The notes under the pieces: model-generated
The model's input: only the letters and a program-made list of their open reading frames with translations
Database searches by the model: none
Told to the model about the DNA's origin: nothing
Source of the DNA: Chloroflexota bacterium
GTDB taxonomy: Bacteria > Chloroflexota > Anaerolineae > DTLA01
Direction of reading: 5' to 3'
Length of the DNA stretch: 54,937 bases
NCBI GenBank assembly: GCA_014360805.1
Contig: JACIWU010000013.1
Span: 1-54,937 of the forward strand
Made by a program: the position numbers and the translations under genes
In this document: positions 4,475 to 46,668 of the stretch, piece after piece
Layout: each line of letters opens with the position of its first letter
Position numbering within the stretch: the first letter of the stretch is position 1

Positions 4475-7400
4475 CTAGTGCCAGAAATAGGGTGGCACCG
4501 ACACAAACGGCAAAAACAGTTGCGGCCGCGCCTGACGGGTCGCCGTAGGTGTAGGCGTTGCCGACGGCGTGGGCGTGGCGGTCGGCGTCGGCGATGGCGT
4601 GCCCGTCGGCGTTGGCGTCGGCGTCCGCGTCGCCGTGGCGGTCGGCGTCGGCGATGGCGTGAGCGTCGCCGTGGCAGTCGGCGTCGGTGATGGCGTCGGC
4701 GTAGGCGTGGGCAGCGCGTAGGCCACCCACAGGCGCGGGCCGTTCGGGTTGTCCCCGTCCGACGACGCGATGCGGTACCAGGTGTAACTCTTACTCTGGC
4801 CCTTCAGCAACAGGCCCCGATTGGTCGCCGAGTCCGCCACCCACTGGCGCGTCATGGGCCGGACGTTCACCTCATAGGTCTTGAAGACCTGGCTGATGTC
4901 CACCACCCCCTCGGCGTCGGGGAAGCGGTCGGTTTCGGTGCTCTCCGCGCCGCTGACGCCCCAGTTCTCCGAGGCGGTGGCCTTGAACCACGTCGCTTCG
5001 GCCGCGTTCCAGGCGCGGCGCATCTGGTAGGCCGAAACGGTCAACGTCTCGGTGTTGCGCTGCGAGGTGGCAACGAGGCGCAGCGAACTCCCCAGGACAA
5101 CGGCGTTCTCCGGAATCGCCGCGGTGTCAAATTGTATGAGCGCGCGCTGATTCCCGTCGGACTGGATCGTCATGTAAGACTCGGAGCCTTTCGGCGTGTT
5201 GTCGTCTTTGACGATGTAGGTATCCTCCACGGCGCGCAATTCCACCTCGTGGATTTGCGGGGCCAACGCGGGCGGCGAAATCCGTATCTCGTGCGTGCCC
5301 CAGCCCGGCGTTACCGACAGGAACCCCCCGACGGAAGAGGCGTTCGTGTGCGAATAGCGCCCTGTAGCCGCGTCAAAATTCTGCACCACCCACGTGGACG
5401 ACAACCCCGCCAGCCCCATCTGCTCCAGGTTGAAGCCCAGGGTCATGGATGGCGTGCTCGCTGTGGTGGAAGCGGGCCTGGGATCCTCGCTGGTTACGGT
5501 GATGACGCCGTCGGCGTCAAAGGTCGCCGCCACGCGGCTCCAGTGGTCGCTGCCCGTCTGGGTGATGGTGAGCCAGTAGTAGGTGCACGTGCGGTCGGTG
5601 AAGGCGCAGCGGCCGTCGGTGCGGACAACCAGGCTCTGGGGCATCCCCACTCGGCGGTACGGCTTCAGAAAGTTCAGAACGCCGTCGCTGCCGCCGGGCC
5701 ACGGCGTATCGTGCCCGCCGGTGTACAGTTCCACCCTGGGCGGTGTGGCAGCATAGGTGCCGACGGCGTCGGACAGCCGAAGGGTGTGCGAAACCGGTAC
5801 CACGGTGTCCTGCAGCCCGTGGGTCAAGAGCATGGGGATACTCGCCATATTGGATGCGTACTCAATCGGCGAGCGGCGTTCGTACTCAAAGGGCTTGCCC
5901 AGAGGCGACCCGCCGATTTCGTATTCCAGCCAGTTCCGCCTCCAGTCCTCCGTCTCCCAATACCACTGATCCAGGTCCGACGGGCCGCGCTCAATGGCGG
6001 CGGCGGCGAACAGATGAGGGTACTTCCCCACCATCCCGCTGGCCATCATCCCGCCCATGGACACGCCCGTGATGTAGATGCGCGATTCGTCCACGCGGTA
6101 GTTGGCCTTCATGTAGTTGATGGTGTCCAGCAACTGCTGTTGCACGCTCAGCGAAAGCGTGTGGTTCTGTTCCAGGTCGGGGGCCACCACCAGCCAGCCG
6201 TTGCGGTTCGCCGCGTCGGCGTGGATTCCCAGCGCGTCCATCGGCTTGCCGCTCCAGCCGTGGATGCTCACCAACAGCGGCAGCGGCACATCGCCCATGT
6301 AGCCCGAAGGGGTCATGATGGCAGCACTGTAGGTCCAACTGCCGTTGCTCGCTTTGAACGACACGGTGCGAATCCTTGCAGGCACCACATCGCCCTCGGC
6401 TTCAATGCGGATGTTCACCGCGCCCCACAGATCGGCGGGGTCGGCGTCGGCGGTGATGGTGATCTCGTTGAACCCGCTGGTCAGGATGGCTGGGTCAAAC
6501 GGCCAGGGGAACGTGCGCCCCGGCTCGCAGGTGCTTCCTCCAGAAGGAAACGAGGTGCCGATCTTGCGGCCGTTCACGTAGATGCTGTGGCCCGCCTTGC
6601 TGTTGGAAATGTCCATGATCAGTTTGGCGCGGGTGAGGCTCCCTGTGTACACGAGCAAGACGTTGGTCTTGGCCTCGGTCCCGAATGTGGAGCCTACCTT
6701 GACGCAGTCGGTAGCCACGGTGGACGTGATCACCGTGCCCGGCACAGGGGTGGGCGTGGGCGTCGGCGTCGGCGTGCGGGTAGCCGTCGGCTCCGGCGTT
6801 ACGCCCGGCTCAAAGGTGTAGTAGATGTCCAGCAGGGGGCGCTTCTGGGCGTCATTGAGCCAATCGGATGCCCAGAACCGATACTCTATGATGGACGAGG
6901 CCGTCGGCAAGAGCAGGAACCCCTTGTTCGTGTCCGGCGCTCCGAACCAGTCCGAAATCGCCCGGGTAACGTCCAGGGTGTATTCAGCGTTGACGGCATT
7001 CACCGTAACCGAAGAGACCGGGCTGGTCTCGCGGTCGCCTGCGCCATCGGCTCCCGCCCCCTCCCAGGGGACGCCCGTGAGGCGGCTTCGCCACGTGGCC
7101 TGGCTCGCATCCCAATCCTGGAGCAAACGATACAGTTCCAAGGTTATGGGCCTGTCAGCCGAGCGCCACGAAGTCGTCCACAGATGCAGCGTAGCCGTCA
7201 GGATGCGGGCGCCCGTTGGAATCTGCCCCGCCAGGTCAAAGCGAAGGAGGGCACGCTTGGCAGGGCCGCCCGTCCGCACCTGCAACTCGCCCCAATGGCT
7301 GGGGTCGTTGAAGTTGGTGTCGGCCGCGTCCTCGTTGATGTACGTATCCGACGCCCCCGTATAGCCGTTGACGTTGTGGCGCAGTTGGACGTGGTAAATC

Positions 7401-31237: not shown

Positions 31238-32230
31238 CTACTCCTGCGGGCGGTTGCCGAAGGACTGGAACGGCGTGGGCTTCCACCACGACCACTCCAC
31301 ACAGTTGCGGCACGAAGGCACGTCGTCCAGTCGGCGCGCCAGGTGTTTGCGGCGCAGTTCCTGCATGGCCGGGCCGTTCCACGCCTTCATCACGCCGCCC
31401 GCCACATTGCCCAGCGGGTACAGGGCATCAAAGTCGCGGTCGCAGCAGACCAGCGTGCCGTCCCAGTAGATGTGGACATGGAACCACAGGTTGGGGCAAT
31501 GCCAGCGTTTGGGGGGCACTTTGGCCTCGGCGGCCCGCAGGCTGGCGATGGCGTCCACCTGATTGCCCCACGAGTCAAAGGGCTTGACGCTCACGCGGTA
31601 CACTCCCGCCTGCCGCCACTGCTTCGTGAACTCCTCCACCTCGGGCAGGGTCGGCTGCATCTCTATGATCTGCACGTTGACCTGGGGCTCCGCGCCGGGC
31701 ACCTGGCGGCGCAGGTCAATGAACCGCTGGATGTTGGCCCGCGTCTGCTCAAAGTCGCCGCGACGGCGGATGGTCTCGTAGGTCTCGGCCGACGCGCCGT
31801 CCAGGCACATATAGATCGTCCCCAGCCCCGCCCGCAGGATCTCCTTGCTGAGGTCCTCCGTGAGCAGCGTGGCGTTGGTGGAAATCTCGGGGCGGATGCC
31901 CTTCTGGCGGGCGTAGGCGATCATGTCGGGCAGTTTCGGATGGAGCAGCGGCTCGCCCCAGATGTGGAGCGTGGTAACCGGCACGTGGCCGGCCATCTCG
32001 TCCACGATGCTCCGGAATAGATCCCAATCCATGTAGCCCCGCTTGCGCTTCATGGTGCCGATGCCGTTGGGGCACATGATGCAATTCAGGTTGCAGGCGT
32101 TGGTGGACTCCAAGTACATGCGGTCGGGATAGTAGGGCAACCGAACCAGGCCGGCCTTGTATCCGAGATACTTGACTAGGGAAGCCGCTCGCTTTCGCAG
32201 GCGGCGGCCCCGCGGAATCCTTATGCCCAT
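31238..32230 (-). CDS. Radical SAM/SPASM-type protein
   Basis: The 330-residue protein has [4Fe-4S] ligands Cys46, Cys50 and Cys53 in ACNLNCIMC, with SRC-type features LHIWGEPLLHPKL, ISTNATLL and MCLDGASAETYETIR. A C-terminal SPASM-like cysteine set includes HCPNLW, TLVCCDRDF and CRNC. SPASM enzymes bind auxiliary clusters and often modify peptides, cofactors or sugars. The ATG at 32230 follows AAGGAAGG. It overlaps the preceding radical SAM gene by 10 bp. It is the only SPASM type among the four radical SAM genes of the window. Confidence 0.87.
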   Translation of the reverse strand: MGIRIPRGRRLRKRAASLVKYLGYKAGLVRLPYYPDRMYLESTNACNLNCIMCPNGIGTMKRKRGYMDWDLFRSIVDEMAGHVPVTTLHIWGEPLLHPKLPDMIAYARQKGIRPEISTNATLLTEDLSKEILRAGLGTIYMCLDGASAETYETIRRRGDFEQTRANIQRFIDLRRQVPGAEPQVNVQIIEMQPTLPEVEEFTKQWRQAGVYRVSVKPFDSWGNQVDAIASLRAAEAKVPPKRWHCPNLWFHVHIYWDGTLVCCDRDFDALYPLGNVAGGVMKAWNGPAMQELRRKHLARRLDDVPSCRNCVEWSWWKPTPFQSFGNRPQE

Positions 32231-33690
32231 GCGTGTTTTCCTTCCTTTCGTAGGGATGCGAAACGCTTGAACAGCCCCAGGCGCATCAGCCTGCGGCCCA
32301 GCGCCCGGATAGGCTTGACGCGCGAGATAGCCCACGCCACAGCGCCCAGGCGCGGGCCGAAAGCCTTCAGGTACCGGCGACGCTGGCGGCTCTCCTCAAA
32401 CCGCCGCCGCGCGATCAGGGCCAGTTTCCCCAGCCGCGAGTCCGACACCTCCGACACGTTCAGGAAAGGCGCGATCTCCTCGGTGTAGGCGTTGTAATAG
32501 TAAGCGCGCGTGAAGTCGGCATTGTAGCGGGTCTCCGGGCGCTTCTTGACCAATTCGTCCCACAGGCGCGTGCCTGGGAATGGCGTCGTGATGCTGAACA
32601 TGGCCTCGTCCAATTCCAGTTCGCAGGCGAAGCGAATCGTCTGCTCCATCGTTTCTTCGGTATCGCCCGGCAGTCCGAGCATGAAGTAGCCCTTGCTGCG
32701 GATTCCGGACTCCGCCGTCCACTTCACGGCCTGGCGCACCTGATCCATGGTGATGTTCTTGCCGGTGGCCGCCAGGACCTGCGGGTTGCCCGACTCAATC
32801 CCGTAGTGGATTTCGCGGCAGCCGGCGCGGTACATCATGGCCAAACTCTCGGGCGTTACGCGGTCCACGCGCCCCAGGCACTGCCAGCGAATGTCCAGGC
32901 CCTCGTCTATGATCATCTGCGAGATGGCCATGAGGCGCTTGGTGTTGATGGTGAACAGGTCATCAATGAAGTAGAAGTTGCGCACGTTGTACTGATTGCG
33001 CAGCAGGCGCAGTTCGTTCACCACGTTCTCGGCGCTCCGCTGGCGGTAGGTACGCCCAACGATGCCCTTGAAGCAGTAACTGCAATTGAAGGGGCAGCCG
33101 CGGCTGGACAGGACGGTCAGCATCTTGCCGCCGTCGGGCGCGGCGAGGGGGTACTTGTCCAGTTCCAGCAGATGGCGCGCGGGCAGCGGCAGCGCGTCCA
33201 GGTCGGCGATGAGCGGGCGCTCTGGCGTGCGCACCACGTCGCCGTCGCGGGCGTAGGCGATGCCGCGAATGCCCGAAAAATCCTCGGCCCCGGCCTCCAG
33301 CGCGGCGATCAGTTCCATCAGCGTCTCCTCGCCCTCGCCGTAGACCACGAAGTCCACGCCCGGATCCGACGCCACGGCCTCCGGGAAGACGGTCGGGTGC
33401 GGCCCGCCCAGAACGATGGGCACCGACGGCAGCGCCTGCTTCAGCAGCGCGATGGCTTCGGTTACGCTGTGGTACCCGCCCGTCATCACCGTGAACCCGA
33501 TGAGCGCGGGCGCGTAGCCCACCACGTCCGCCACGTCCTCCTGTTGTGGGCGGTGGGGATGCAGGCCGAAGTCAAAGATGCGCGCCTCGTGCCCGCCACG
33601 CTCCAGGACTGCCGCCAAGTACGCCAGCCCCAAGGGCGGGTAGTCGGTGATCTTCTCGTGCCACTTCGGCGCAATCAGCGCAACTCTCAA
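32221..33690 (-). CDS. Radical SAM protein with B12-binding-like domain; first gene of the glycan operon
   Basis: The 489-residue protein has a B12-binding-like N-terminal domain (MRVALIAPKW, PPLGLAYLAAVLERGGHEARIFD, LGGPHPTVFPE near 94, YGEGEE near 117). The SAM core has Cys199, Cys203 and Cys206 in GCPFNCSYC and a REIHYGIESGN segment. The start is TTG at 33690 because GAGGAG lies 8 nt before it; longer readings would run back across the leader and hairpin. It is the first gene downstream of the predicted promoter at 33874-33879. Confidence 0.85.
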   Translation of the reverse strand: MRVALIAPKWHEKITDYPPLGLAYLAAVLERGGHEARIFDFGLHPHRPQQEDVADVVGYAPALIGFTVMTGGYHSVTEAIALLKQALPSVPIVLGGPHPTVFPEAVASDPGVDFVVYGEGEETLMELIAALEAGAEDFSGIRGIAYARDGDVVRTPERPLIADLDALPLPARHLLELDKYPLAAPDGGKMLTVLSSRGCPFNCSYCFKGIVGRTYRQRSAENVVNELRLLRNQYNVRNFYFIDDLFTINTKRLMAISQMIIDEGLDIRWQCLGRVDRVTPESLAMMYRAGCREIHYGIESGNPQVLAATGKNITMDQVRQAVKWTAESGIRSKGYFMLGLPGDTEETMEQTIRFACELELDEAMFSITTPFPGTRLWDELVKKRPETRYNADFTRAYYYNAYTEEIAPFLNVSEVSDSRLGKLALIARRRFEESRQRRRYLKAFGPRLGAVAWAISRVKPIRALGRRLMRLGLFKRFASLRKEGKHAWA

Positions 33691-33805
33691 ATCATCATCT
33701 CCTCTGGATTCGGATGTGGAGGAAGGGCAGAAGTGTCGGGCGTTACTGTTCTTTGCACCCCATGTTCGGGCCGCGCATCCCTCGCCATCCCACCTGCACA
33801 ATTAC

Positions 33806-33831
33806 GTCGGCCCCGAGTGCCGGGAGCCGAC
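33806..33831 (-). promoter_or_regulatory. Leader hairpin upstream of the glycan operon
   Basis: GTCGGC-CCCG (33806-33815), a 5-nt loop AGTGC and CGGG-A-GCCGAC (33821-33831) form a 10-bp stem with one bulged base. It lies in the predicted untranslated leader of the 33,690 gene. No T-run follows it on either strand, so it is not an obvious terminator. Confidence 0.5.
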
Positions 33832-33873
33832 GCAGGCAGCGGCCCACTTGTGATGATAGGTCTCCTCATCCCG

Positions 33874-33930
33874 ATTATACACAACCTTGATGAAAAACGG
33901 ATGACAAACCCGTCGGGCGCGCATGACAAA
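33874..33930 (-). promoter_or_regulatory. Promoter with 11-bp-phased PhoB/OmpR-like activator site
   Basis: Read on the minus strand, TTTGTCATGCG (33920-33930), a degenerate 11-mer (33909-33919), TTTGTCATCCG (33898-33908) and TTTTTCATCAA (33887-33897) are consecutive 11-bp units. A 7-bp spacer leads to TATAAT (33879-33874). There is no clear -35 hexamer, as expected for activator-dependent class II promoters. PhoB family proteins bind 11-bp direct repeats (Pho box half-site CTGTCAT). Confidence 0.65.
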
Positions 33931-33970
33931 CTGTTCATGATAACCGACGCCAGGGCGAGGACACGAGACC

Positions 33971-36277
33971 TCACTGTCGGGCGCCCTCGGAGGGCAACGT
34001 GGTGAAGTCCAGCGACAGGTCGCGCCCGCCTTCCAGGCGCTTGGGCAGGACGAACTTGAACACGCTGCCCTGCGGTTCCGCGCCCTCCACCCAGATGCGC
34101 CCGCGGTGATGCTCCACGATGTGCTTGCAGATGCTGAGGCCCAGGCCGGTGCCGCGATAGGGGCGAGTCGCGCCGCTGTCCACCTGGTAGAACCGCTCAA
34201 AGACCTTCTCGCGCTCGGCTGGCGGGATGCCGATGCCCGTATCGGCCACCGAGATGAGCACGCGGTCGCCCAAATCCTCGCCGTGGATAACGATGCGGCC
34301 GCCCGCCGGCGTGAACTTGATGGCGTTGTCCACCAGGTTGGTGAGCACCTGCTCCATGCGAGTCGCGTCGGCCTCCACCGTGGCGAAATCGGCGGGAATC
34401 GTGGACTCCAGCGCGATCTGCGCCTCCTGCGCCTGCGGCGCCAGTTTCTCGGCGACGCGCGCCGCGATGTCGGCGAACGAAATCTCCTCTATGCGCAGCC
34501 GAATCTGCCCCGATTCCAGCCGCGAGAACTCCAGGAGTTCGCTGATGAGATTCTGCAACTGGTCGGTCTGCTCGCGAACCGTAGCCAGAAAGTCGCGCTG
34601 GAGGTCGTTGATCTTGCCCGTCTTGCCCATCAGGATGATGTCCACAAACCCCTTGATGGAGTGGAGCGGCGTCTTCAATTCGTGCGAGACGACGGACAGG
34701 AAATTGGACTTCATCTGCTCCAGTTGCTTCTGGCTGGTGATGTCGCGCAGCACGGTAACGACGCCGCGCGCCTCGCCGGCAGCGCCCGGGACGGTCGTCG
34801 CAAGGGCCTGGTAGATCATCTCCGGGTGCTCGCGGGTCATCGGCACCCGAATCTCGCGGATGACAGGCTTCCCCGGGGCCGCCAGCGCCTCGCGCATCAC
34901 GCCCATCAGTTCGCGGTGGCCCACCGTGTCGGCCAGCGGCTTGCCCAGCGAGGGGGCGTCCTCCACGCCGAAGATGCGCACCGCCACGGGGTTCATCATC
35001 ACCAGGTTCAGGTCGGTGTCGGTAACCAGGACGCCGTCGCCAATACCCTGGAGCACCGCCTCCAACTCGTTGCTCTTCTCCTGCACGCTCCGGTAAATCT
35101 GCTCCGTCTGGCGCTTCTCGCGGGCCAGGTCTTCGTAGAGCCGCGCCTTCTTGACCGCGATGGCCGCCTGGTCGGCAAAGGCCGCCAGAAGGTTCAGGTC
35201 ATCCGGCCCGAATGCGTTGGCCTCGGGGCTGGTGGCGCTGATGGCCCCGATGGCCTTCCCGTCGGACATGAGCGGAACGCTGATGATGGACTGCACGGGC
35301 ATCTGGCCCAGGCGGATGTAGCGGGCATCCTGGCTCACGTCGCCGATGAGCGCCGGCGCCGCGTTGGCCACGACCCAGCCGGCGACGCCCTTGCCCACGG
35401 GGAAGCGAGACCCCCACAGGCTCTGCGCGGGCACGCCCGACGCCGCCAGGGTTACCACCTCGCCCGTCGCCTCGTCCAGCAGCGCGATGGAGCAGCGAGT
35501 GCCCCGCAGCACCTGCGAGGCGTTGGCGACAATCATCCCCAGCAGCGACTCCAGGGCCACCGCCGAGTTGATCGTCTTGATCCCCTCTTGCAGGGAGCGC
35601 AACTGCATGACCCGGTCGCCCAAGTCCGTCGCCGTCCGCTGCAACACCGACGTCTTGCGGCGGAGTTCCTGCCCCTGCTCCTCCAGGGCGTAGTTGAGCC
35701 CGCGCACGAGGCGATACCGGCGCTCCAAGAGCCATGCCACGTACAGCGCCGCCAGCACCATCGCGAACAGGATGAGATACCGCAGCACGAACCCGGGCGA
35801 CAGCAGGAACAAGAGCGATTGAATCTGCAGGTACACGCCGAGGATGTACAGCGGCCCGTAGAGGAACGGCAGGAAGATGAGCCAGTGCGCGAACGGGTAG
35901 CACAGGGCCACTTTCACCGCAAGCACGAAGTAGAGCAGGTAGAGTTCGCTCCCCACGCCGCCGGAGTACGGAATCAGGAACAGGATGGCCAGCGAGTCCA
36001 CGATGGTGGCCGCCGGCACGAGCCAGACGGGAATCCTGTCGCGCCAGGTGCCGTACACCAGCACCGAGATGAGGAACGCGAAGGCCATGAACACCGCCAG
36101 GCCGAGCGCCGCCGCCCGCGGGAACGGCACCTGCTGCGTCGTCCACACGCTGATGGCGCCCACCAGGAACATGCCCCAGCGCAACGGCGCGCCGAACCGC
36201 CGTTCCAGGCGCAACAACCCATCCTTGCGGTAGTGGAGCGTCGGCGGTGGGATGTAGATCGTCGTGGATGCGCTCAT
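33971..36277 (-). CDS. Membrane sensor histidine kinase with GAF and PAS domains
   Basis: The 768-residue protein has about six hydrophobic segments in residues 34-185. A coiled coil (about 190-235) leads to a GAF domain (237-380), a PAS domain (about 400-520) and HisKA with phospho-acceptor His532 in SVVSHELKTPLH. The HATPase domain (to about 745) has NLVDNAIKFTP, DTGIGIPP and GTGLGLSI. It is a full-length two-component kinase that autophosphorylates and then phosphorylates a response regulator. The OmpR/PhoB-type regulator at 45988-46668 is the likely partner, although four other genes separate them. The ATG at 36277 follows GAGGGGGG. What the sensor detects is unknown. Confidence 0.92.
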   Translation of the reverse strand: MSASTTIYIPPPTLHYRKDGLLRLERRFGAPLRWGMFLVGAISVWTTQQVPFPRAAALGLAVFMAFAFLISVLVYGTWRDRIPVWLVPAATIVDSLAILFLIPYSGGVGSELYLLYFVLAVKVALCYPFAHWLIFLPFLYGPLYILGVYLQIQSLLFLLSPGFVLRYLILFAMVLAALYVAWLLERRYRLVRGLNYALEEQGQELRRKTSVLQRTATDLGDRVMQLRSLQEGIKTINSAVALESLLGMIVANASQVLRGTRCSIALLDEATGEVVTLAASGVPAQSLWGSRFPVGKGVAGWVVANAAPALIGDVSQDARYIRLGQMPVQSIISVPLMSDGKAIGAISATSPEANAFGPDDLNLLAAFADQAAIAVKKARLYEDLAREKRQTEQIYRSVQEKSNELEAVLQGIGDGVLVTDTDLNLVMMNPVAVRIFGVEDAPSLGKPLADTVGHRELMGVMREALAAPGKPVIREIRVPMTREHPEMIYQALATTVPGAAGEARGVVTVLRDITSQKQLEQMKSNFLSVVSHELKTPLHSIKGFVDIILMGKTGKINDLQRDFLATVREQTDQLQNLISELLEFSRLESGQIRLRIEEISFADIAARVAEKLAPQAQEAQIALESTIPADFATVEADATRMEQVLTNLVDNAIKFTPAGGRIVIHGEDLGDRVLISVADTGIGIPPAEREKVFERFYQVDSGATRPYRGTGLGLSICKHIVEHHRGRIWVEGAEPQGSVFKFVLPKRLEGGRDLSLDFTTLPSEGARQ

Positions 36278-36308: not shown

Positions 36309-37688
36309 TCATCGCGGCGGCAAGGTCGGCGTCGCCGTCGGCGCCGGCGTTGGGGTGGGCGACGGCCCCGGCGCGGTGGGCGTGAACGTGGGCGCGGGGC
36401 GGGTCGGCTCCTGAACGACCGCCGTCGGCGAGGGACTCGGAGAGAACGTGGCCGTGGGCGACAGCGCAACCGTCGCCGTCCGTGCCGGCGTGGCGGTCGG
36501 CGCCAGCGTCGCCGTAGCCGTCGGGCTGGGCAGGCGCGTGCGGGTCGGCGTCGGCGTTCCCGTGGGCGAGCGCGTGGGCGTCGGCGACTCGGTAGGGGGC
36601 AGCGGCGTGGGCGTGTACGGCGGCGGCACGGTTATCCCAGCGCCGCTCCTCACCCATGCCAGCGACCGCGCCCACACGCCGTTGTCGGTGCCCGCCAGAA
36701 GCGTCTCGTTGTCCAGCGGATCCAGCGCCAGGCTGTTCACCCCAAGCCTCCCCATGCCCTCGCGGAAGGGCTGCCATGTCCTGGCGTAGTTGTTGCTCCA
36801 GTACACGCCGTCGGGGTTTGTACCCAGGAACACCGTGCCGCGCACGGCGGGATCCACCAGCAGCGCGACGGCAAACCCCGACCCCAAACCGGCCGCGCGG
36901 CGCGTCCATGTCCCCCCGCCGTCGGTAGTCGCATACACGCTGGCCCCGGCGGCCATGTACGCCATGTTGGGTTCCACCGGATCAATGGCGATGGAGTTCA
37001 CCACCCGCTCCAGCGACAGGCGCAGCGACAGGGCCCACGTCTGGCCCCGATCCCGCGAGATGTACACTTCGCCCCGCGACGTGCCCAGCCAGAGTTCGCC
37101 CGGGCTGCGCGGGTGCACCACCAGCACCGAAGGCGCGCTGGCGGCGGCAGGGCCTCCCAGCCGCTGCCAGGTCAGCCCGCCATCGGCGCTGCGATAGATA
37201 TCCGTACCGGTGGCCGCGTACAGGATGTTCGGGTCCGACTCCAACGCCACCGCCCGAACCACATCCTTCCCGAAGTCCACGCGCAGCAAGGCCCACGACG
37301 CGGGATACGTCTGGGCGTAGAAGCCCACCGAATCCGCCCGCTCTCCCAGGGCCAGGTACAGCCGTATCTGCTCCCCATCCTGGGCTGCCAGGCGCACGCG
37401 CGGAACCTGGCCCCACGCGCCTGTGGGCAGGCCGCCGTTGAGCGCGCGCCAGCGTCCGTCCGTCAGATGCCACACGCCAAGCCCCGACGTGGTGCAGAGG
37501 TATCGGGTTTCCCCGTCGCTCCTCAAGGCATAGACGGCATCCACCTTGCTGCCCTCCATGCCCAGGGGCCGCCAGGCGTTCGCCAGAGAATCCCGCGGAA
37601 CGGCGAACACCAGCAGCAGAGGCGCGAAGAAGACCAGGCTAGCCGCTAGCGCCTGAATCACTCGGGCCCTGGTTATCGGGACTTGCAT
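36309..37688 (-). CDS. Secreted BNR/Asp-box beta-propeller protein with Pro/Thr tail
   Basis: The protein is about 459 residues long. An N-terminal hydrophobic segment (about 8-30) acts as signal or anchor. A propeller of repeated blades has Asp-box motifs SADGGLTW, SRDRGQTW and TTDGGGTW, with a related YARTWQPF, like VPS10/Ycf48-type BNR proteins. The last about 110 residues are PTPTPT/TATP repeats ending TLPPR. It is probably an envelope-exposed binding protein. The ATG at 37688, 6 nt after AGGGG, is preferred over the ATG two codons upstream, which abuts that site. Confidence 0.82.
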   Translation of the reverse strand: MQVPITRARVIQALAASLVFFAPLLLVFAVPRDSLANAWRPLGMEGSKVDAVYALRSDGETRYLCTTSGLGVWHLTDGRWRALNGGLPTGAWGQVPRVRLAAQDGEQIRLYLALGERADSVGFYAQTYPASWALLRVDFGKDVVRAVALESDPNILYAATGTDIYRSADGGLTWQRLGGPAAASAPSVLVVHPRSPGELWLGTSRGEVYISRDRGQTWALSLRLSLERVVNSIAIDPVEPNMAYMAAGASVYATTDGGGTWTRRAAGLGSGFAVALLVDPAVRGTVFLGTNPDGVYWSNNYARTWQPFREGMGRLGVNSLALDPLDNETLLAGTDNGVWARSLAWVRSGAGITVPPPYTPTPLPPTESPTPTRSPTGTPTPTRTRLPSPTATATLAPTATPARTATVALSPTATFSPSPSPTAVVQEPTRPAPTFTPTAPGPSPTPTPAPTATPTLPPR

Positions 37689-37697
37689 GGGCATCCC

Positions 37698-39167
37698 CTA
37701 GCGCGGCGGCCTCGTGGGCGTGGGCGGCACCGGCGTCGCCGTGGGCGGCTGGGTTGGCGTCGGCGGCTTTGTGGGCGGCGGCGGAGGCGGCTGGGTCGGC
37801 GGCACCGGCGTCGCCGTGGGCGGCACCGGCGTGTTCGTGGGCGCGCGCGTCCGCGTCGGCGTGCGGGTCGGCGTAGTGGTGGGCGTCGGCGTCGCATAGT
37901 TGGTGAGGATGTCGGCGATTCGCGCTTGCGCCTCGGCGGTATCCACGCCCGCCACGGCCTGCGCCTGGCCGTACTGCGCCAGCGCCTCGGTGTAGCGGCC
38001 AGCATCTCGCAGAGCATCGCCGCGCGCGATGTAGGTCTTGTACAGCCAATAGCCCGCGTTGCGAATGGGATACTCGCCCGGCGCGCTGTAGAGTTTGTTG
38101 AAACGCGCGTGGGCCAAATCAAACTCGCCATTCCCGAAGGCCACGACGCCGGCCAGGTACGACTCGGCGTCGCTCTTGATGGCCGCCACCCGACTGTCCT
38201 GCGGGTTCAGAGTCAGCGCGCTGGACAGATGCTGGATGGCGCGCCGCAGGTCGGCCACCTGGCTCGCCTGATCGTCTATCAGGCGCTTCGCCTCGTTCAC
38301 ATACGACTCAAACAGCATTTTGCGGACCAACTGCTCATTGTAGGATGGCTCCAGACTGCGGGCGCGCTCCAGGCGGTCTATCGCTTTGCCCCATTCGCCG
38401 CTCTCGTAGTAGCCCTGTCCCTCCTTGTACAGGTCGGCGACCGTCTTGCGGCGCTCCACAAACGAGGCCAACGTGCTGGCATCGCTGTAACTGGGATCTA
38501 TCTCCAGAATCTTGTTGAGTTCGGCCCAGGCCAGGTCCCACTGTTCGTTGGCAATGTACGTCCTCGCGTTCTGGTACAGGATGCTGAGATTGGACAAACG
38601 GCGTGCCTTGTCCAGGCCAAACTGCGCGCCCTTGTGATTGGGATCGCGCTCCAGAATCTGCTCGTAGATGCGGATCGCCTCTTCGTAATCCCCGACCGTC
38701 ATCTTCGCCTGGGCGCGGTTGTATAGCACATCAATGGGATCGGGCTGCTGGGTCTTGAAGATGAGGAACGCCCCAAGGGCGACGACGACCAGCACCAGCG
38801 GCCATATCAGGACGCGCCAGTTGAAGCGGATGGGGGCGCGGCGGGCCTTCGGCGGGCGCGCGACCACCTCGCGGACTTCCGGCTCCGCAGACGGCCCGGT
38901 ACGCACCGCCTCGGTCTCTGTCGCCTGGCCTTCAGGTCCCATGGCCTGGAGTTGGATGAACCAATCCAATTCGTCCAGCAGGGCGTCAATCCCAGGCCGA
39001 TTCGGCTCAAGCGCCTTGAGGCGCACGAAGTACTCCATGGCCCTCTGCCACTCGCGGCGACGGTAATGGGCCATGCCCCGTGTGTAGAGCGCCTCTGCGT
39101 CCAGTTCCTCGTCGGGGTTCGGGTCCCCAGCAGCCTCCTGGGCCATCTTATTCAGGGGATCATCCAT
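37698..39167 (-). CDS. TPR membrane protein with Pro/Thr tail
   Basis: The 489-residue protein has a cytoplasmic TPR-like segment (about 25-75, EALYTRGMAHYRRREWQRAMEYF), a membrane helix (117-137) and several extracytoplasmic TPR repeats (about 145-430) such as YEEAIRIYEQILERDPNHKGA and ARTYIANEQWDLAWAELNKILEIDPSYSD. A tail of PTPT/PPT repeats ends it. The ATG at 39167 follows GGGAGGGG. TPRs on both membrane sides suggest a scaffold linking cytoplasmic and envelope partners. It is preceded by a 135-bp gap. Confidence 0.83.
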   Translation of the reverse strand: MDDPLNKMAQEAAGDPNPDEELDAEALYTRGMAHYRRREWQRAMEYFVRLKALEPNRPGIDALLDELDWFIQLQAMGPEGQATETEAVRTGPSAEPEVREVVARPPKARRAPIRFNWRVLIWPLVLVVVALGAFLIFKTQQPDPIDVLYNRAQAKMTVGDYEEAIRIYEQILERDPNHKGAQFGLDKARRLSNLSILYQNARTYIANEQWDLAWAELNKILEIDPSYSDASTLASFVERRKTVADLYKEGQGYYESGEWGKAIDRLERARSLEPSYNEQLVRKMLFESYVNEAKRLIDDQASQVADLRRAIQHLSSALTLNPQDSRVAAIKSDAESYLAGVVAFGNGEFDLAHARFNKLYSAPGEYPIRNAGYWLYKTYIARGDALRDAGRYTEALAQYGQAQAVAGVDTAEAQARIADILTNYATPTPTTTPTRTPTRTRAPTNTPVPPTATPVPPTQPPPPPPTKPPTPTQPPTATPVPPTPTRPPR

Positions 39168-39246
39168 AGCCCCTCCCGATGCCCAGGCGCGGTGCAACAT
39201 ACTGCAACTCGCATTCTTCTCCCCCCAAGCATTCCAAAACCTCAAA

Positions 39247-39277
39247 CGGCGGCAACTCGTTTGGCCTCGTGCCGCCG
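39247..39277 (-). terminator. Possible intrinsic terminator or attenuator after the giant repeat gene
   Basis: CGGCGGCA (39247-39254) pairs with TGCCGCCG (39270-39277), an 8-bp stem with a 15-nt loop. On the minus strand it is followed by GTTTGAGGTTTTGG, a weak T-rich stretch. It lies in the 135-bp gap between the giant gene's stop and the TPR gene. Confidence 0.35.
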
Positions 39278-39302
39278 ACACGACGCGCTTCGCCGCGGCC
39301 CC

Positions 39303-42300
39303 CTAGCGTCTCGGGCGCCCCTCCGTCAGCGGTATGGCCCAAAGCGCCTCGGGCACATCCTGCGGCCCAACGGCCGACGTGCGCCCGGCGCGCGTGCCGT
39401 CAAAGTTCAGCGGCACCAGCGGCAGGCGCACCTTTGGCGCAAGCCGCGTGCGCACCTGTACCCCATCCACCAGCGTCCACGTGTTGTACCAGCCCAGCCC
39501 CTGCTGCGGGTCGTAATCGTACTCGCGGTTCCAGTTGGCGAACTCCACGGTGATCGTCTGCCCGGCGTAGGGCGACAGGTCTATCTGCGCGTAGCGCCAG
39601 CCCAGGTCCCGCAGAATCAGCACCGACGTGATCGGCTCTGTGAAGTTGCCGTCGCGCAGGACTAACTGCGGCGAGCCGCCTTGCCGCGTGATCGTTACGT
39701 CAAACGAATCGTAGAGCATCCCATCGCTCCCCACGACCACGTCATACGTGTAGATATGATACCAGAAACTCAAGACCGGGGTCAACACCTGGTCGGCGGT
39801 GGGCACGGTGAACGTCTGCGACATGCACGCCGCCCCGACCGGCACGCTGGGCAACGTGTCCGTGCGCGTGTAGGCGGGGTCGCCCAGGCGGGCCACCCAG
39901 CCCTCAACCCCGCGATAGTCCGTGGCGCGCACCACGCTGCGGTTGAACCTGGGCGTGCAGCCCAGCGTCCAGCCGCTGAAGCTGCCGGTCTCCAGGTCAC
40001 CGTTCACCACCGGCGAGACCTGCACCAGGATTTGGGCCGACAGGGGATAGTCGCCCTGGTTGCCCGCAACATCCCGCGCGCGGGCCCTGAAGCCATAGGT
40101 GTGCCCCCGCTGTCCCACATACGGCGCCGACGTCAGGTCGGTGTTGGTGAGCCAGTCGGTCCAGGCGCCGCCAAGACCATCGACCACCTGCACATCGTAA
40201 CGCGCCAGGCCCGACCCGGGCGCAGGATCCAGCCCCACCCACGACACGGTGAAGTTCGTACCGGTCTGGAACGAACCAGGCGGGATGAACGCCACGATAG
40301 GCGCCGTGCGGTCAATGCGGAACGACACCGTAATCACACCCGACTCGTTGCCGGCCACATCCGCAGCCTTGTAGGCCACTGTGTGATCGCCGTCCGTGCT
40401 CACAACGACGGAATTGCCCGTCTGCCACGAGCCTCCGTTCACTCGGTACCGGGTGGCGGCCAGGCCCGATAGCGTGTCGGTGGCCGCGAATGTTACCGTA
40501 ACCGGCGACACGTACCAGTTCTCGGAGCCTAGCGTGCCCGCCAGGGTGTGCGTAACGGTAGGCGGCAGCGCGTCGCGGCGGATCGCCCGCGGCAGCCAGG
40601 CGTAGTTCTGATAGCCCACGTTCCCGGCCACGTCTTCCAGCCAGACGTACAGGTCATGCTCGCCGTTGGCCGTAACGTTGATGGAGGCGCTGGGGACCAC
40701 AACGGCCACGCGCGTCCCGTCCGTCGGCCCGGATGGCGGGGCGTTGAGTTTGTAGTACATCGCCGCGATGCCGGAATCATCGGCGGGCAGCGGGTTCTTC
40801 CAGGTTACCGTGAAGGTGCTGCCCCTGGACCACCCCGAAGGCGTTACGCGCACATCGGTTGGGGCGGCGGGCGGCCGATTGTCCATGCGGACGGTGAGGG
40901 AGCGCACGACTTCCACATTGCCTGCCGCGTCCAGCCCGCGGTACTCCACGACGTGCTTGCCGGGCGTGCTGATCGCCGCCATCGCCGTGGCGACGCCCGT
41001 CTCGGTAACCCACGCCGACGCATCTACCCGATAGGCCACGCCGGAAACGCCGGACAGCCCCGGCTGATCCTGCGACACGAAAGTAACGGTAACCGGCGAA
41101 GTGAACCAGGCGTTGTTGCCCAGCGTGCCGTTCAGCGAGGCATTCGTGATGGGCGGCAGCGGGTCGTACAGGAACGCATTGATGCGGGCGGCACGGTTCA
41201 CAAAACTGGTGTTCCCCGCCATGTCGCGCAGCCAGACGGTGATGCTGTGCCTGCCCTCGCCAGACACGGTGATGTCGTCAATGCGGGTGCCGCCGGGGAC
41301 ATACGTGCCGTCGGTGTTGAACGTCGGCTCGGCGTCCAGTTTATAGTAGGCGCCTGCAATCCCCGACGTGTCCGCCGGCGGGGTCCACGAGATGCTGAAG
41401 TGGTTCACGTTGGTCCACGTCGTGGGCGAAGGCGTCAAATCCATCGGCATTCCGGGCGCTGTGGTGTCAATGCGCACCGGGCTTGCCTGCGGTTCGCCCC
41501 GATTCCCCGCCTCGTCCACGCCGTAATGCTCCAGGACGTGGTCGCCATCGGCGGAGATGCCCACGGTGTTGCCTTTGACCCACGGGCCACCGTCCAGCCG
41601 GTAGTACACCTCGCCCTCGGCCGGGCCGGATGTCGTATCCGTAACGGAGATTGTAACGCCGACCGACGAGCGATACCACCCGTTGTCGCCGACCGCGCCG
41701 CTGATCTGGATGCTGCTGGTGGGCGGAATCGTGTCCACGCGCACCGTGCCCGACATGACCTCGCTCTCGTTGCCCGCGCGGTCAATGGCGTAGTAGTAGA
41801 ACGTGCGCGTCCCTTCGCCGCCCACGACGAACGTCTTGCCCGACAGCCACGGGCCGATCGTCCCCATGCGATAGCGATACCCGTCTTCCCCCACGCCCGA
41901 TGTGGCGTCGGTGCCGTCCAGAATCACGGTAACCGGCGACGTGTACCACCCCGTCGCGCTCAACGTGCCCGACAGGGTGTGCGTAACCGACGGCGCGGCC
42001 GTGTCTATGCCCACGCTGTACGCATGGGTGGCCTCTACGTTGCCGGCGTTGTCGGTGGAATAGTACTCAAACGTGTGGACGCCATCGCCCGACATCACGA
42101 ACGAAGCCGTGGTGGTGAGCCATGCGCCCGCGTCCACCTGGTAGAAGCGCTGATCCACGCCGGACAGCCCCGGCTGATCCACCGCGGTCAGGGTGGCTGT
42201 TACCGCGCCACGGAACCAGCCATTGTCGCCGGCTGGCCCCGAAAGGGCATGGGTCGTCTGGGGCGGCGTGGCGTCGTACTTGAACATGCCCGGCCACACC

Positions 42301-45300
42301 AGGCGGCGGTTGTGGTTCACGTTGCCCGCGTTGTCCTGAAGCCACAGGTGGATATCCCAAACCCCCTCGGCCGGCACGCTGATGTCCGTGATGGTGTTGG
42401 TGGTGCTGACGAAGCGCACAGCGTCGGTGGGCGAGGTCGGCGGCGTGAACTTGTAGTACGCGCCGGCAATGCCCGACAGGTCGGGCGCGTTCGTCCAGGT
42501 TACGGTGAACACGTTGGTATTCTTCCAGCCGTCGTAGTACTGCGGCTCGGTGGGCGCGAAGGGCGCGGTATTGTCCACGATGAACGTAGATGGCGTCGGC
42601 GGATCTTGCGCGTTGCCGGCCTTATCCGTCGGGCGCATCTGCACGGTGTAGATGGCTTCCACCGGCGGCGCAAAGGTGTAGGCCCAGGTCTCGGCGCCGG
42701 TGGCGCGCAACCACACCGGACTCCCCACCCACACGCTGCCGGAGAAGTACTTGCTGTCCGAACTGCGCTGCAGGGTGAAGTCCACGAAATCCACGCCTAC
42801 GCCCGCATCGGCAGCCGTTCCGGCGATGGCGCCGGGCCATGTGGCCGTGCGGTAGGCCGCCGACGTCTCCAGGGTAGCCGTCGGCGGCGTGCTGTCGTAG
42901 ATGAACTGGCCGGTCCCGTAGGTCAACTCCGGATTGCCCGAGACGCTCCACGCGCGAGATTGCACCGTGTAGGTAACCGACTCCGTCGGACTGAAGGGGT
43001 AACTCCAGTTCAGGGTCCCCGTCGCCGTGAGCCACTGGGAGGTCAACTGCCAACCGCTGCCGTTGTAGTACTTGTCGTCCGTGCTGCGCTGTACGGTGAT
43101 CTCCACGCGGGCGACGCCCGAAACCCCCGCCGAGGCCGTGCCGGTGATGGCACCCGTCCACGTGGTGGCGCGGTAGAAGCCCACCGTGCCCACGATGGAG
43201 TCGGGCTCCTGCACGTCCAGCGCGAACGAGGCGCTGCCGTAGGTGGTCTCGGTGTTGCCGGCCTTGTCCACGGCGCGCGAGGTTACGGTGTACACCCGGT
43301 CCGACTCGGGACTGAACGGGTAGGTCCAGGTCGTCGTGCCGGTCGCGGTGATCCACGTCTGCGCAACCTGCCAGACGGCGCCGTTCCAGTACCTTCCATC
43401 ACCCGAACGCTGCACCGTGATGGCCGCGGCCAGCACGCCCGAAGTGGCATCGGTAGCCGTGCCGGTGATGGCGCCTGTCCACGTCAGGGCGTTGTAGTAG
43501 CCGCTGGTGGCCACCTGCGAATCGGGCGGCTGGAGGTCGTAGCAGAACGAACTGCTCGCATAGACGGATTGGATGTTCCCTGCCACGTCCAGCGCCCGCG
43601 AACGCACCGTGTACGTCAAGCCATCCGTTGGCGTGAAGGCGTACTGCCAGGCATCCGTGCCCGTGGCCAGAAGCCAAAACTCCGTCGCCTGCCAGCCGGA
43701 CCCGTTATAGTAGTAGTTATCGGGTCTCTGCACCGTCAGTTCCACCCGCTGGAGGCCCGAGCCTTCGTCCGAGGCCGTGCCGGTAATCTGCCCCGTCCAC
43801 GTATCCAGGCGGTAGAAGCCGGAGGTCGCGATGGCCGAGACGGGGATGGCCGCGTCGTAGGAGAAGGTGGATTGCGACGGCGTCGTCTGCTCGTTGCCCG
43901 CGCGGTCGGTGGCCTTGGCACGCACCGTGTACGTCTCGCCGTGCTGGGGCGAGAACGGGTACGACCAGTTGGCCGTGCCTGTGGCGGGCAGCCAGATCTC
44001 AATCGGCTGCCACGTTGTCCCGTTCCAGAACGTGTTGTCCGACTTCTTGATGGACAGCGCCACCGACTGTAGCCCCGACTCGGCATCCGCCGCGGTGCCG
44101 GTGATGGCCCCCGACCACGTCAGCGGCCCGTAGTAGCCGGATACACCCACCGTGGACGTGGGGTCGGTGCCGTCGTAGGAGAATGACGCTGAGCCGTAAG
44201 TGGTCTGCTCGTTGCCCGCGCGGTCGGTGGCCCTGGACTGCACCGTGTACGTGATGCCCTGCGTCGGGGTGAACGGGTAGGTCCAGGCGTTGGTGCCCGA
44301 GGCCAGCAGCCACGTGGGTGAGGACGCCCACCCGCTGCCGTCATAGTACTGGCCGTCGGGGCGGCGCACGGTAATGTGCACCACATCCACGCCCACGAAG
44401 TCATCCGACGCCAGGCCGGCGATGGTGCCGGTCCACGCCGTCTTGCCCAGCAGCCCGCTGGTGGTTACCGAGGACGTGGGGACGCCGCTGTCGTAGACGA
44501 GCGTGCCCGTGCCGTAGGCAGTTTGCTGGTTGCCGGCGGCATCCTGGGCGCGGGACTGGATGGTGTAGGTCTTGCCGTGCTCCGGCGCGAACGGATAGTG
44601 CCAGGCCGTCGTGCCGCTGGCGAGCAGCCACACCGGAGTGGCTTGCCACCACGAGCCGTTGTAGTACTGATTGGTGTCGCCGCGCTGGATGGTGATGTCC
44701 ACCCGTGCAACGCCCGATTCGGCGTCCTCGGCGGTTCCGGTGATGTTGCCCGTCCACGTGAGAGTCCCATAGTAGCCGCTGGTGCCCACGGCCGAGGTGG
44801 GCAGCCCGATGTCCAGCATGAACGTGGCCGCCGCCGACAGAGGGGATTGCACGTTGCCCACGTTATCGGTGGCGCGCGAACGCACTTCGTAGGTCATCCC
44901 CGGCTCGGGCGTGAAGGCGTAGGACCACGATTCTGTGCCGCTGGCGAGCAGCCACACGGCCGAGCCGACCCACCCGCTGCCGTCGTAGTACAGGCCGTCG
45001 TTCACGCGCCTCAGCGTGATCTCCACCTTCTGCACGCCGGAACCCACGTCGCTGGCCGTGCCCGTGATGAAGCCCGTCCACGTGGCGGCGCGGTAGAAGC
45101 CCGACGTCCCGACGGCCGAGGTGGGAGCGGTGTTGTCAAAGTGGATGGTGCCCGAGCCGAGCGCGGTCTGCACCAGGCCGGCCACATCCGTGGCGCGCGA
45201 GGACACGTTGTAGGTTACGGTCTCGGTGGGCGCGAAAGAATAGGACCAACTCGTCGTGCCGGTGGCCAGGAGCCACAAGGGACTCCCCTGCCAGCCGACG

Positions 45301-45944
45301 CCGTTGTAGTACTGATTGTTGTCGCCGCGCTGGATGAGGATGTCCACCCGCGCAACGCCCGACGTGGCATCCGACGCCGTGCCCGTGATGACCGAGAGGG
45401 TCTTGAACCAGCCGTCGGTCGTTACCGAAGAGGCGGGCGCTGTGGAGTCCACCTGGAGCGGATAGGCCGGGCTGGTCTCCGTCATCGCGGCCCCGTCCAG
45501 GATACGAAACATGATGAGGTTGTCGGTGGCCGAGTCGGGCAGGAACAGGTTGGTAACGGTCATCCGCTTGGTGGTCGTCAGGTCGCCGGCGATGGAAAGG
45601 CCCGTCTGCCCCCACGAGAACCAGGACCCGCCGCCATCGGTGGAGTACGAGTATTGCGCCGTGGTATCCTGTAGCCCGTCCGCGTCGGTAACGGAGACGC
45701 TGGCCGAGACCAGGCTCTGGGTGATCCAGCCCGTGGGCGCGAACTCGTCCCACGTGGCCGCCTCGGCCGCCTGGGGCGGTACTGGGGGCGCGGCGGGGGT
45801 GTCCAGGAAGCCCGCATGGGGAGTAACGCCCGCGCGAGCCGCCTGGCCGCCAATGAAGAAGACCCCCAGCAGCAAGAGGCCCGCGACGCCAAACGCAACA
45901 GCAAGGCGAATGCCCTGTTGCCTTCGGGTTTCAGTGTTTTTCAT
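39303..45944 (-). CDS. Giant secreted repeat protein (2,213 residues) with OmpL47-type and Ig-like repeats
   Basis: A signal peptide (about 1-38, cleavage near ARA-G) precedes an N-terminal beta region. Nine tandem repeats of about 106 residues follow, each with GxYRxxTWTGxITGTAxD, xGVxRVxITxQR, YYNGSGW, WLLASGT and SYPFxP. Then come about five OmpL47-type repeats (VTHTLSGT, GWYTSPVTV, VDEAGN) alternating with four FN3-like segments (SGIAGAYYKL). A jelly-roll-like C-terminal domain contains YAQIDLSPYAGQTITVEF and ends RLPLVPLNF plus a 37-residue tail. The ATG at 45944 has a weak GGAG upstream. A surface adhesin or glycan-interacting envelope protein is plausible; the function is unknown. Confidence 0.85.
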   Translation of the reverse strand: MKNTETRRQQGIRLAVAFGVAGLLLLGVFFIGGQAARAGVTPHAGFLDTPAAPPVPPQAAEAATWDEFAPTGWITQSLVSASVSVTDADGLQDTTAQYSYSTDGGGSWFSWGQTGLSIAGDLTTTKRMTVTNLFLPDSATDNLIMFRILDGAAMTETSPAYPLQVDSTAPASSVTTDGWFKTLSVITGTASDATSGVARVDILIQRGDNNQYYNGVGWQGSPLWLLATGTTSWSYSFAPTETVTYNVSSRATDVAGLVQTALGSGTIHFDNTAPTSAVGTSGFYRAATWTGFITGTASDVGSGVQKVEITLRRVNDGLYYDGSGWVGSAVWLLASGTESWSYAFTPEPGMTYEVRSRATDNVGNVQSPLSAAATFMLDIGLPTSAVGTSGYYGTLTWTGNITGTAEDAESGVARVDITIQRGDTNQYYNGSWWQATPVWLLASGTTAWHYPFAPEHGKTYTIQSRAQDAAGNQQTAYGTGTLVYDSGVPTSSVTTSGLLGKTAWTGTIAGLASDDFVGVDVVHITVRRPDGQYYDGSGWASSPTWLLASGTNAWTYPFTPTQGITYTVQSRATDRAGNEQTTYGSASFSYDGTDPTSTVGVSGYYGPLTWSGAITGTAADAESGLQSVALSIKKSDNTFWNGTTWQPIEIWLPATGTANWSYPFSPQHGETYTVRAKATDRAGNEQTTPSQSTFSYDAAIPVSAIATSGFYRLDTWTGQITGTASDEGSGLQRVELTVQRPDNYYYNGSGWQATEFWLLATGTDAWQYAFTPTDGLTYTVRSRALDVAGNIQSVYASSSFCYDLQPPDSQVATSGYYNALTWTGAITGTATDATSGVLAAAITVQRSGDGRYWNGAVWQVAQTWITATGTTTWTYPFSPESDRVYTVTSRAVDKAGNTETTYGSASFALDVQEPDSIVGTVGFYRATTWTGAITGTASAGVSGVARVEITVQRSTDDKYYNGSGWQLTSQWLTATGTLNWSYPFSPTESVTYTVQSRAWSVSGNPELTYGTGQFIYDSTPPTATLETSAAYRTATWPGAIAGTAADAGVGVDFVDFTLQRSSDSKYFSGSVWVGSPVWLRATGAETWAYTFAPPVEAIYTVQMRPTDKAGNAQDPPTPSTFIVDNTAPFAPTEPQYYDGWKNTNVFTVTWTNAPDLSGIAGAYYKFTPPTSPTDAVRFVSTTNTITDISVPAEGVWDIHLWLQDNAGNVNHNRRLVWPGMFKYDATPPQTTHALSGPAGDNGWFRGAVTATLTAVDQPGLSGVDQRFYQVDAGAWLTTTASFVMSGDGVHTFEYYSTDNAGNVEATHAYSVGIDTAAPSVTHTLSGTLSATGWYTSPVTVILDGTDATSGVGEDGYRYRMGTIGPWLSGKTFVVGGEGTRTFYYYAIDRAGNESEVMSGTVRVDTIPPTSSIQISGAVGDNGWYRSSVGVTISVTDTTSGPAEGEVYYRLDGGPWVKGNTVGISADGDHVLEHYGVDEAGNRGEPQASPVRIDTTAPGMPMDLTPSPTTWTNVNHFSISWTPPADTSGIAGAYYKLDAEPTFNTDGTYVPGGTRIDDITVSGEGRHSITVWLRDMAGNTSFVNRAARINAFLYDPLPPITNASLNGTLGNNAWFTSPVTVTFVSQDQPGLSGVSGVAYRVDASAWVTETGVATAMAAISTPGKHVVEYRGLDAAGNVEVVRSLTVRMDNRPPAAPTDVRVTPSGWSRGSTFTVTWKNPLPADDSGIAAMYYKLNAPPSGPTDGTRVAVVVPSASINVTANGEHDLYVWLEDVAGNVGYQNYAWLPRAIRRDALPPTVTHTLAGTLGSENWYVSPVTVTFAATDTLSGLAATRYRVNGGSWQTGNSVVVSTDGDHTVAYKAADVAGNESGVITVSFRIDRTAPIVAFIPPGSFQTGTNFTVSWVGLDPAPGSGLARYDVQVVDGLGGAWTDWLTNTDLTSAPYVGQRGHTYGFRARARDVAGNQGDYPLSAQILVQVSPVVNGDLETGSFSGWTLGCTPRFNRSVVRATDYRGVEGWVARLGDPAYTRTDTLPSVPVGAACMSQTFTVPTADQVLTPVLSFWYHIYTYDVVVGSDGMLYDSFDVTITRQGGSPQLVLRDGNFTEPITSVLILRDLGWRYAQIDLSPYAGQTITVEFANWNREYDYDPQQGLGWYNTWTLVDGVQVRTRLAPKVRLPLVPLNFDGTRAGRTSAVGPQDVPEALWAIPLTEGRPRR
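42565..45430 (-). repeat. Nine tandem about 318-bp coding repeats
   Basis: The nine repeats of the giant protein are visible as DNA repeats of about 318 bp carrying recurring sequences such as GTGCCGGTGATG and TTGTAGTA. They are divergent enough to be distinguished, so the array is old. Recombination between repeats could change repeat number. Confidence 0.8.
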
Positions 45945-45987: not shown

Positions 45988-46668
45988 CTACGCCTCAAAC
46001 CGATAGCCCAACCCCCGCACGGTGAGCAGATACTCCGGATGGGCCGGGTCTGCCTCTATTTTGTTGCGCAGCCGCCTCACGTACACGGCCACCTGGTTGC
46101 TGTACCCTTCGTAGTCGTACCCCCACACGGCCGTCAGCAGGAAGTCCTGCGACAGGACTCGTCCGGCGTTGCGGGCCAGGCAGTACAGCAGCCGAAACTC
46201 AATGGGCGTGAGGTCCACGGTCTTGCCGCGCACCGTCGCCTTGTTTTCCAGCGGATCCAGAACGAAGTCGCCGACCACGAGCCGCCCCTGCGGTTCGCCC
46301 GTGGCGTAGGCTTCGGTGCGCCGCAGGACGGCCTTCACCCGCGCCAGCAACTCGGCCGGCTCAAAGGGCTTGGCCAGATAGTCGTCCGCGCCCAGTTCCA
46401 GACCCTGCACGCGGTCCGCCGTCTCGCCCCGCGCCGACAGGAAGATGATGGGCACTTTCTTCTTGCTGCGGATGCGGCGGCAAACCTCGTGCCCGTCCAT
46501 GTGCGGCATCATCACATCCAGAATCACCAGGTCCGGCGACTCCTTTTCTACCAGTTCCAGGGCCTTGATGCCGTTGTCGGCCGTGCTTACCGTGTACCCT
46601 TCCTCCCGTAGAAGGAAGGCGATCATCTTCACGCTGGGGGCATCGTCATCTACCACGAGAACGTGCAT
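45988..46668 (-). CDS. OmpR/PhoB-family response regulator
   Basis: The 226-residue protein has an N-terminal receiver domain with acidic residues VVDDD near 5-9, phospho-acceptor Asp51 in VILDVMMP, Ser/Thr in LSARGETADR and Lys100 in DYLAKPFEP. A winged-helix DNA-binding domain follows with LTPIEFRLLYCLARNAGRV and VYVRRLRNKIEADP. Family members bind direct repeats near promoters after phosphorylation. It is separated by 43 bp from the giant gene downstream. The histidine kinase at 33971-36277 is a likely partner, and the repeats at 33887-33930 a likely target. Confidence 0.93.
   Translation of the reverse strand: MHVLVVDDDAPSVKMIAFLLREEGYTVSTADNGIKALELVEKESPDLVILDVMMPHMDGHEVCRRIRSKKKVPIIFLSARGETADRVQGLELGADDYLAKPFEPAELLARVKAVLRRTEAYATGEPQGRLVVGDFVLDPLENKATVRGKTVDLTPIEFRLLYCLARNAGRVLSQDFLLTAVWGYDYEGYSNQVAVYVRRLRNKIEADPAHPEYLLTVRGLGYRFEA

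Follow-up and report, generated by a model that had tools for sequence, protein, structure and literature searches.

Pho boxes are built from pairs of 11-nt repeats, the letters of which depend on the species (PMC4415409). At the promoters controlled by PhoB, an OmpR/PhoB-type regulator, in E. coli and other bacteria, 11-bp tandem half-sites for a winged-helix protein take the place of the -35 element beside a good -10. The ArcA operators of E. coli comprise two core direct repeats 11 bp apart, often accompanied by extra direct repeats 11 or 22 bp away (PMC3798270); their layouts are varied, and they have been described as direct repeats only. Most regulators of the OmpR/PhoB family bind direct repeats, and the atypical Helicobacter pylori regulator HP1043 is among the few described as recognizing inverted ones (PMC3960148). 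In Actinobacteria, MtrA, tied to the cell wall and to division (PMC6265350), and RegX3 are the best matches, among solved structures, to the regulator considered here. Little appears to have been published on transcriptional control in the class to which the present organism belongs; a matching regulator or motif was not found in the literature searched, papers outside that search being possible.

The stretch of DNA analyzed here (54,937 bp, hereafter the window) carries, behind a histidine kinase gene and ahead of a long run of glycan genes, a promoter element that resembles the PhoB promoters in having tandem 11-bp half-sites where a -35 would be, adjacent to a good -10, but differs from them in its regulator, its TTTTCATC half-site, an upstream inverted half-site and its envelope targets. 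Whereas ArcA operators are variable, the layout of this element (an everted pair, then 22 bp to unit 3 and the tandem pair) is nearly invariant and tied to the -10; and in contrast to HP1043, it is a canonical phospho-acceptor regulator that appears to use everted and tandem pairs within one promoter, an unusual combination for this family. The system is set apart from those of MtrA and RegX3 by its GAF-PAS kinase with about five membrane helices, by three repeat-protein genes lying between kinase and regulator, and by its different targets. The kind of control is a known one (OmpR/PhoB two-component control), and the novelty lies in the regulon and in the layout of the operator.

Layout and conservation of the promoter element

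Comparison across the genomes of the class gives the full promoter as ATGAACAAACTGTCATC-N14-TTTTCATC-N3-TTTTCATC-N9-TATAAT, that is, an upstream pair with its first half-site in inverted orientation, followed by a tandem pair (11 bp apart) adjoining the -10 (Table 1). The minus strand of the window reads ATGAACAG TTTGTCATGCG CGCCCGACGGG TTTGTCATCCG TTTTTCATCAA GGTTGTG TATAAT. The initial annotation had described four consecutive 11-mers in front of TATAAT, three of them with TTTxTCAT, and was exact in position and letters, TTTKTCAT being common to three of the four. Its 11-bp phasing also stands, with units 3 and 4 spaced by 11 bp and unit 1 by 22 bp, as in tandem half-sites of the OmpR/PhoB family; its count of four repeats does not, because the element has four parts including the overlooked inverted half-site, and unit 2 is degenerate. 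This spacer carries no information in the logo of the class sites and, judged by its sequence, is not a recognition unit. The consensus ATGAACAA of the inverted half-site is the reverse complement of TTGTTCAT, which differs from TTTTTCAT at a single position; this makes the upstream pair everted (ATGAACA/TGTCAT), in contrast to the tandem downstream pair. TTTKTCAT occurs four times in the window, which has 67% GC, three of them at this element, and the 11-bp pair only once; at up to three mismatches 0.09 such pairs are expected per window, and the single one observed has none.

Table 1. Coordinates of the promoter element, its predicted targets and the associated gene cluster in the window
Feature	Coordinates	Strand	Basis
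Inverted half-site ATGAACAG (consensus ATGAACAA; reverse complement TTGTTCAT), 5' part of operator	33931-33938	-	Fixed distance in regulator-holding genomes; logo
Unit 1, TTTGTCATGCG	33920-33930	-	Sequence, congeners, logo
"Unit 2", spacer turn, CGCCCGACGGG, degenerate	33909-33919	-	Varies even between congeners
Unit 3, TTTGTCATCCG, first of tandem pair	33898-33908	-	Sequence, scans, logo
Unit 4, TTTTTCATCAA, second of tandem pair, over -35 position	33887-33897	-	Sequence, scans, logo
-10 element, TATAAT	33874-33879	-	Sequence; conserved in the sites found though outside the 396-genome search pattern
5' leader, about 180 nt, GC-rich hairpin sequence CGTCGGCTCCCGGCACTCGGGGCCGACG kept in three genomes	33691-33873	-	Alignment
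B12-binding radical SAM protein, 489 aa, first gene behind site	32221-33690	-	PF02310 + PF04055; ortholog behind site in other families
SPASM radical SAM protein, second gene	31238-32230	-	Domains
Remaining 25 genes of run: GT2, GT87 and PMT_2-type glycosyltransferases, nucleotidyltransferase, epimerases, deacetylase, others	1-31144	-	Domains
Histidine kinase, 768 aa; about five predicted membrane helices, GAF, PAS, HisKA, HATPase_c	33971-36277	-	Domains
BNR/sortilin-like repeat protein, N-terminal hydrophobic segment	36309-37661	-	Domains
TPR protein, one predicted membrane helix	37698-39167	-	Domains
Giant Ig-like (Big) repeat protein, 2190 aa	39303-45875	-	Domains
OmpR/PhoB-type response regulator, 226 aa, receiver Asp D51, winged helix; proposed operator binder	45988-46668	-	PF00072 + PF00486

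A promoter search found no sigma-70-type -35/-10 pair in the region of the element, in line with the previous remark that a good -35 is missing. Units 3 and 4 lie over the -35 position, with 9 bp between the end of the pair and the -10; a good -10, no -35 and a putative activator site over the -35 are the arrangement of a class II sigma-70 promoter. PhoB-type activators contact region 4 of sigma-70 at that place, over the -35 and next to the -10, which makes activation likely here. The missing -35 and the position of the operator thereby favor activation rather than repression, and support the activator dependence that had been suggested for this site.

In both other genomes of the genus the element recurs at this position, flanked by the same genes, with units 1, 3 and 4, the 7-nt gap and the -10 identical and unit 2 different. 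The pair at up to two mismatches gave 3, 4 and 4 matches in the three genomes of the genus, the reversed pattern giving 0, 0 and 1. The same architecture recurs ahead of the gene for an unknown 216-aa protein, itself upstream of a gene for an HD-domain protein (G000:C132), and ahead of a GH1 gene in the two congeners (G001:C11 and G002:C56), which makes the element a module and not a one-off. In this genus the regulator's own promoter lacks the site. Regarding leaders, that of the window run (33691-33873) had no credible Rfam match. Between the site and the GH1 gene there is a leader with a strong terminator-like hairpin (L036 8716-8832, z -4.2, with a matching leader in L035), likewise without an Rfam match and followed by a sigma-70-like promoter of its own; the site ahead of the GH1 gene may drive a short RNA.

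Distribution across the class and linkage to the regulator

A first class pattern, TTKTCATC-N2-WTTTTCATC-N9-TANNAT at up to three mismatches, gave 69 matches in 23 class genomes with an ortholog of the window regulator (reversed control, 0) and 15 matches in 37 genomes without it (reversed control, 2). Of the 59 distinct sites in regulator-holding genomes, 47 carry the upstream block ATGAACAAACTGTCATC, which had no part in this search pattern, at 30 or 31 bp ahead of unit 3; none of the 17 sites in the other genomes does. A strict pattern made of the upstream block and the tandem pair, with the -10 left out and up to three mismatches, was then applied to 396 genomes of the class: it matched 75 times in 41 genomes, while its reversed form matched in none of the 396, and it recovered the -10 at its fixed distance (T in 89%, A in 100%, the last T in 97%). 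The next start lies at a median distance of 118 bp from this -10. The initial annotation had held that lack of conservation, or frequent occurrence at random positions, would speak against the motif; the element is conserved, its reversed control is zero, and none of the 96 testable sites falls inside a called gene, in DNA that is 73% coding. The plain pair TTTKTCAT-N3-TTTKTCAT was rejected as a regulon-specific marker, several of its 23 class matches outside the genus being attributable to another regulator group and others lacking a clear promoter, and a further candidate (site D, G000:C31:12809, TTTTTCACC repeats before a cyclic-di-AMP receptor) was dropped for want of the upstream element.

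Close orthologs of the regulator are present in 75 of the 396 genomes, and in 40 of the 41 site-positive ones (Fisher p = 8e-33), a count made on genomes related by descent; within one family (f36), the element occurs in five of five regulator holders and in none of ten non-holders (p = 3e-4). The only site-positive genome without the regulator (G063) is an 84%-complete assembly and a congener of a regulator-bearing genome. The strict pattern was unmatched in 35 regulator-holding genomes, which points either to drift of the motif or to an over-strict pattern. In families f1, f7, f17, f22 and f42, the element lies directly behind the kinase and before the B12-radical SAM and SPASM genes; in f16, f18, f20 and f23 it directly precedes the regulator gene. 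The probable cognate winged-helix regulator is encoded in the cluster and co-occurs with the element over the genomes of the class.

The kinase and the regulator had been placed together immediately upstream of the site. This holds for the kinase, whereas 12 kb separate the site from the regulator gene, which lies upstream at the far end of a conserved five-gene cluster (regulator, Big-repeat giant, TPR, BNR, kinase) whose order is kept in nearly all families checked, with BNR undetected in two loci. Both proteins have the domains of a two-component pair, their genes remain linked, and a kinase ortholog was present wherever the regulator ortholog was in the first 41 genomes, more weakly in one. 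The three repeat proteins (36309-45875 in the window) are encoded between regulator and kinase in many families; outside the genus the giant falls to about 33-44% identity, and the regulator keeps 63-75%. In the PDB the regulator is related to MtrA, RegX3 and RpaA, the first two being the closest solved structures. Its recognition helix NQ[VI]AVY[VM]RRLR (SNQVAVYVRRLR and close variants) is nearly fixed among the orthologs and differs from that of the genome's PhoB (RTVDVHVRWLR) and of the other paralogs examined.

Predicted targets

In the window, the element precedes 27 genes on one strand, none separated from the next by more than 93 bp, with many glycosyltransferases and sugar-nucleotide enzymes among them; the run leaves the contig end, its order is the same in a congener (G002), and a single 33-kb transcript is plausible from this arrangement. 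Over the class, a called gene was in range for 76 of 97 distinct sites, and Pfam was run on cluster representatives only. These first genes include 17 sugar-phosphate transferases (PF02397), a family that primes exopolysaccharide synthesis, 14 giant secreted proteins with SdrD_B, DUF11 or PKD domains, eight B12-radical SAM proteins, seven HTH_32 proteins and, in three cases, the regulator itself, together with single cases, among them genes for a Wzz-like chain-length protein, a DegT aminotransferase, group-1 glycosyltransferases and a Flp pilin. Most of the targets are, by their domains, envelope genes. Ten genomes contain 49 PF02397 genes (3-7 per genome), and in nine of these genomes a site precedes one of them. 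A scan of relatives for enrichment upstream of glycan genes had been proposed as a check, and the PF02397 and B12-radical SAM genes among the 76 sites provide that enrichment. Some targets are not obviously related to glycans (the GH1 gene, a DUF362 gene and the unknown gene upstream of the HD-domain gene). The single regulatory circuit for surface-glycan targets that had been envisaged is supported by regulator co-occurrence, linkage and envelope first genes; it would in fact be wider than proposed, since these comparisons strongly support a class-wide regulon across many families.

Competing readings and the proposed circuit

The resemblance to PhoB promoters raises the question of whether the element is a Pho box in the strict sense, recognized by the organism's PhoB and tying the glycan cluster to phosphate starvation, and the 11-bp tandem layout, the -10 distance and the TGTCAT core are indeed like the E. 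coli box (CTGTCAT; PMC4415409). We nonetheless consider this very unlikely, since the pst operon lies with a PhoB/PhoR pair of its own on contig 31, where the one pstS promoter inspected has TTAAC-type 11-mers (TTTAACAAGAT GTTAACATGGT GTTGAACGGTC GTTAAACGGCG) and no TTTKTCAT, and the recognition helix of that PhoB is a different one. The four TTAAC-type 11-mers, before TAGACT at pstS (L037, about 5048-5110), are the probable true Pho box of the organism; the same layout with other letters fits two regulators of one family. The "PhoB-like" label given to the window site consequently survives for its layout and not for its letters. Another OmpR-type paralog, of which the genome has about 15, could also bind the element, the neighboring regulator being co-distributed by descent. 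The half-site is shared by more than one paralog, in view of a second regulator group of the class that precedes TTTTTCAT-type 11-mers of another layout; but the 40/41 co-occurrence with the neighboring regulator and the linkage of the site to the cluster in nine families, in four of them before the regulator gene, render this explanation improbable. In that second pair (L028 in G002:C80, L044, L045, L053, L054, L060 and L062), the kinase and an OmpR-type regulator (helix YLRAYVRYLRRK) are followed by TTTTTCATGGA TTTTTCAT and, about 20 bp on, by TTTCTATGNG TTTTTCAT, directly before another operon whose first gene is NuoE-like in two genomes. Likewise, TTTTTCACC-type 11-mers between the genes of an OmpR-type regulator and a cyclic-di-AMP receptor (PF06153; L037 12782-12968), kept in G001, suggest yet another regulator-operator pair.

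The small HTH_32 protein, the gene of which is directly behind the site in several families, might itself be taken for the DNA-binding factor. It is absent, however, from the three genomes of the window genus and from G019, G027, G029 and G054, all of them site-bearing, and it was discarded as a general factor, being a target and not a requirement; the probability left to this reading is very small. The protein (L180 12314-12751 and relatives) has about 145 aa and resembles the N-terminal part of a transposase. Finally, a single locus can look striking, and the repeats could be AT-rich sequence that arose fortuitously within GC-rich DNA, the -10 being an ordinary one; conservation between families, the fixed spacing, the absence of sites inside genes and the empty reversed-pattern control rule this out for practical purposes.

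The reading we prefer, with a probability of about 0.86, takes the site for an activator-dependent promoter belonging to a conserved surface-coat regulon under two-component control, that of the kinase and the regulator of the window. The membrane kinase would phosphorylate the OmpR-type regulator, a pairing suggested by their conserved linkage; with about five predicted membrane helices, GAF and PAS, its cue may come from the membrane or be internal. Dimers of the regulator would occupy the upstream everted pair and the downstream tandem pair TTTTCATC-N3-TTTTCATC, and we infer its physical binding to the element from the sequence comparisons. From the tandem pair, over the -35 and abutting the -10, sigma-70 polymerase would be recruited in the manner of PhoB, switching on the glycan genes from 33690 and further envelope genes elsewhere in the genome; in other families the element would also drive the regulator's own gene. 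A broader version would have a single canonical OmpR-type regulator recognize a fixed composite operator of everted and tandem pairs throughout an undescribed class-wide regulon, with the Ig-like giant, the TPR and the BNR proteins acting as part of its sensing or output device; it is more tentative, and we rate it at slightly under even odds.

The specificity of the motif would allow predicting, genome by genome, co-expressed glycosyltransferase clusters, priming sugar transferases and giant surface proteins of the class, and its layout offers a test case for how one OmpR-type regulator may work on everted and tandem half-sites in a single promoter.
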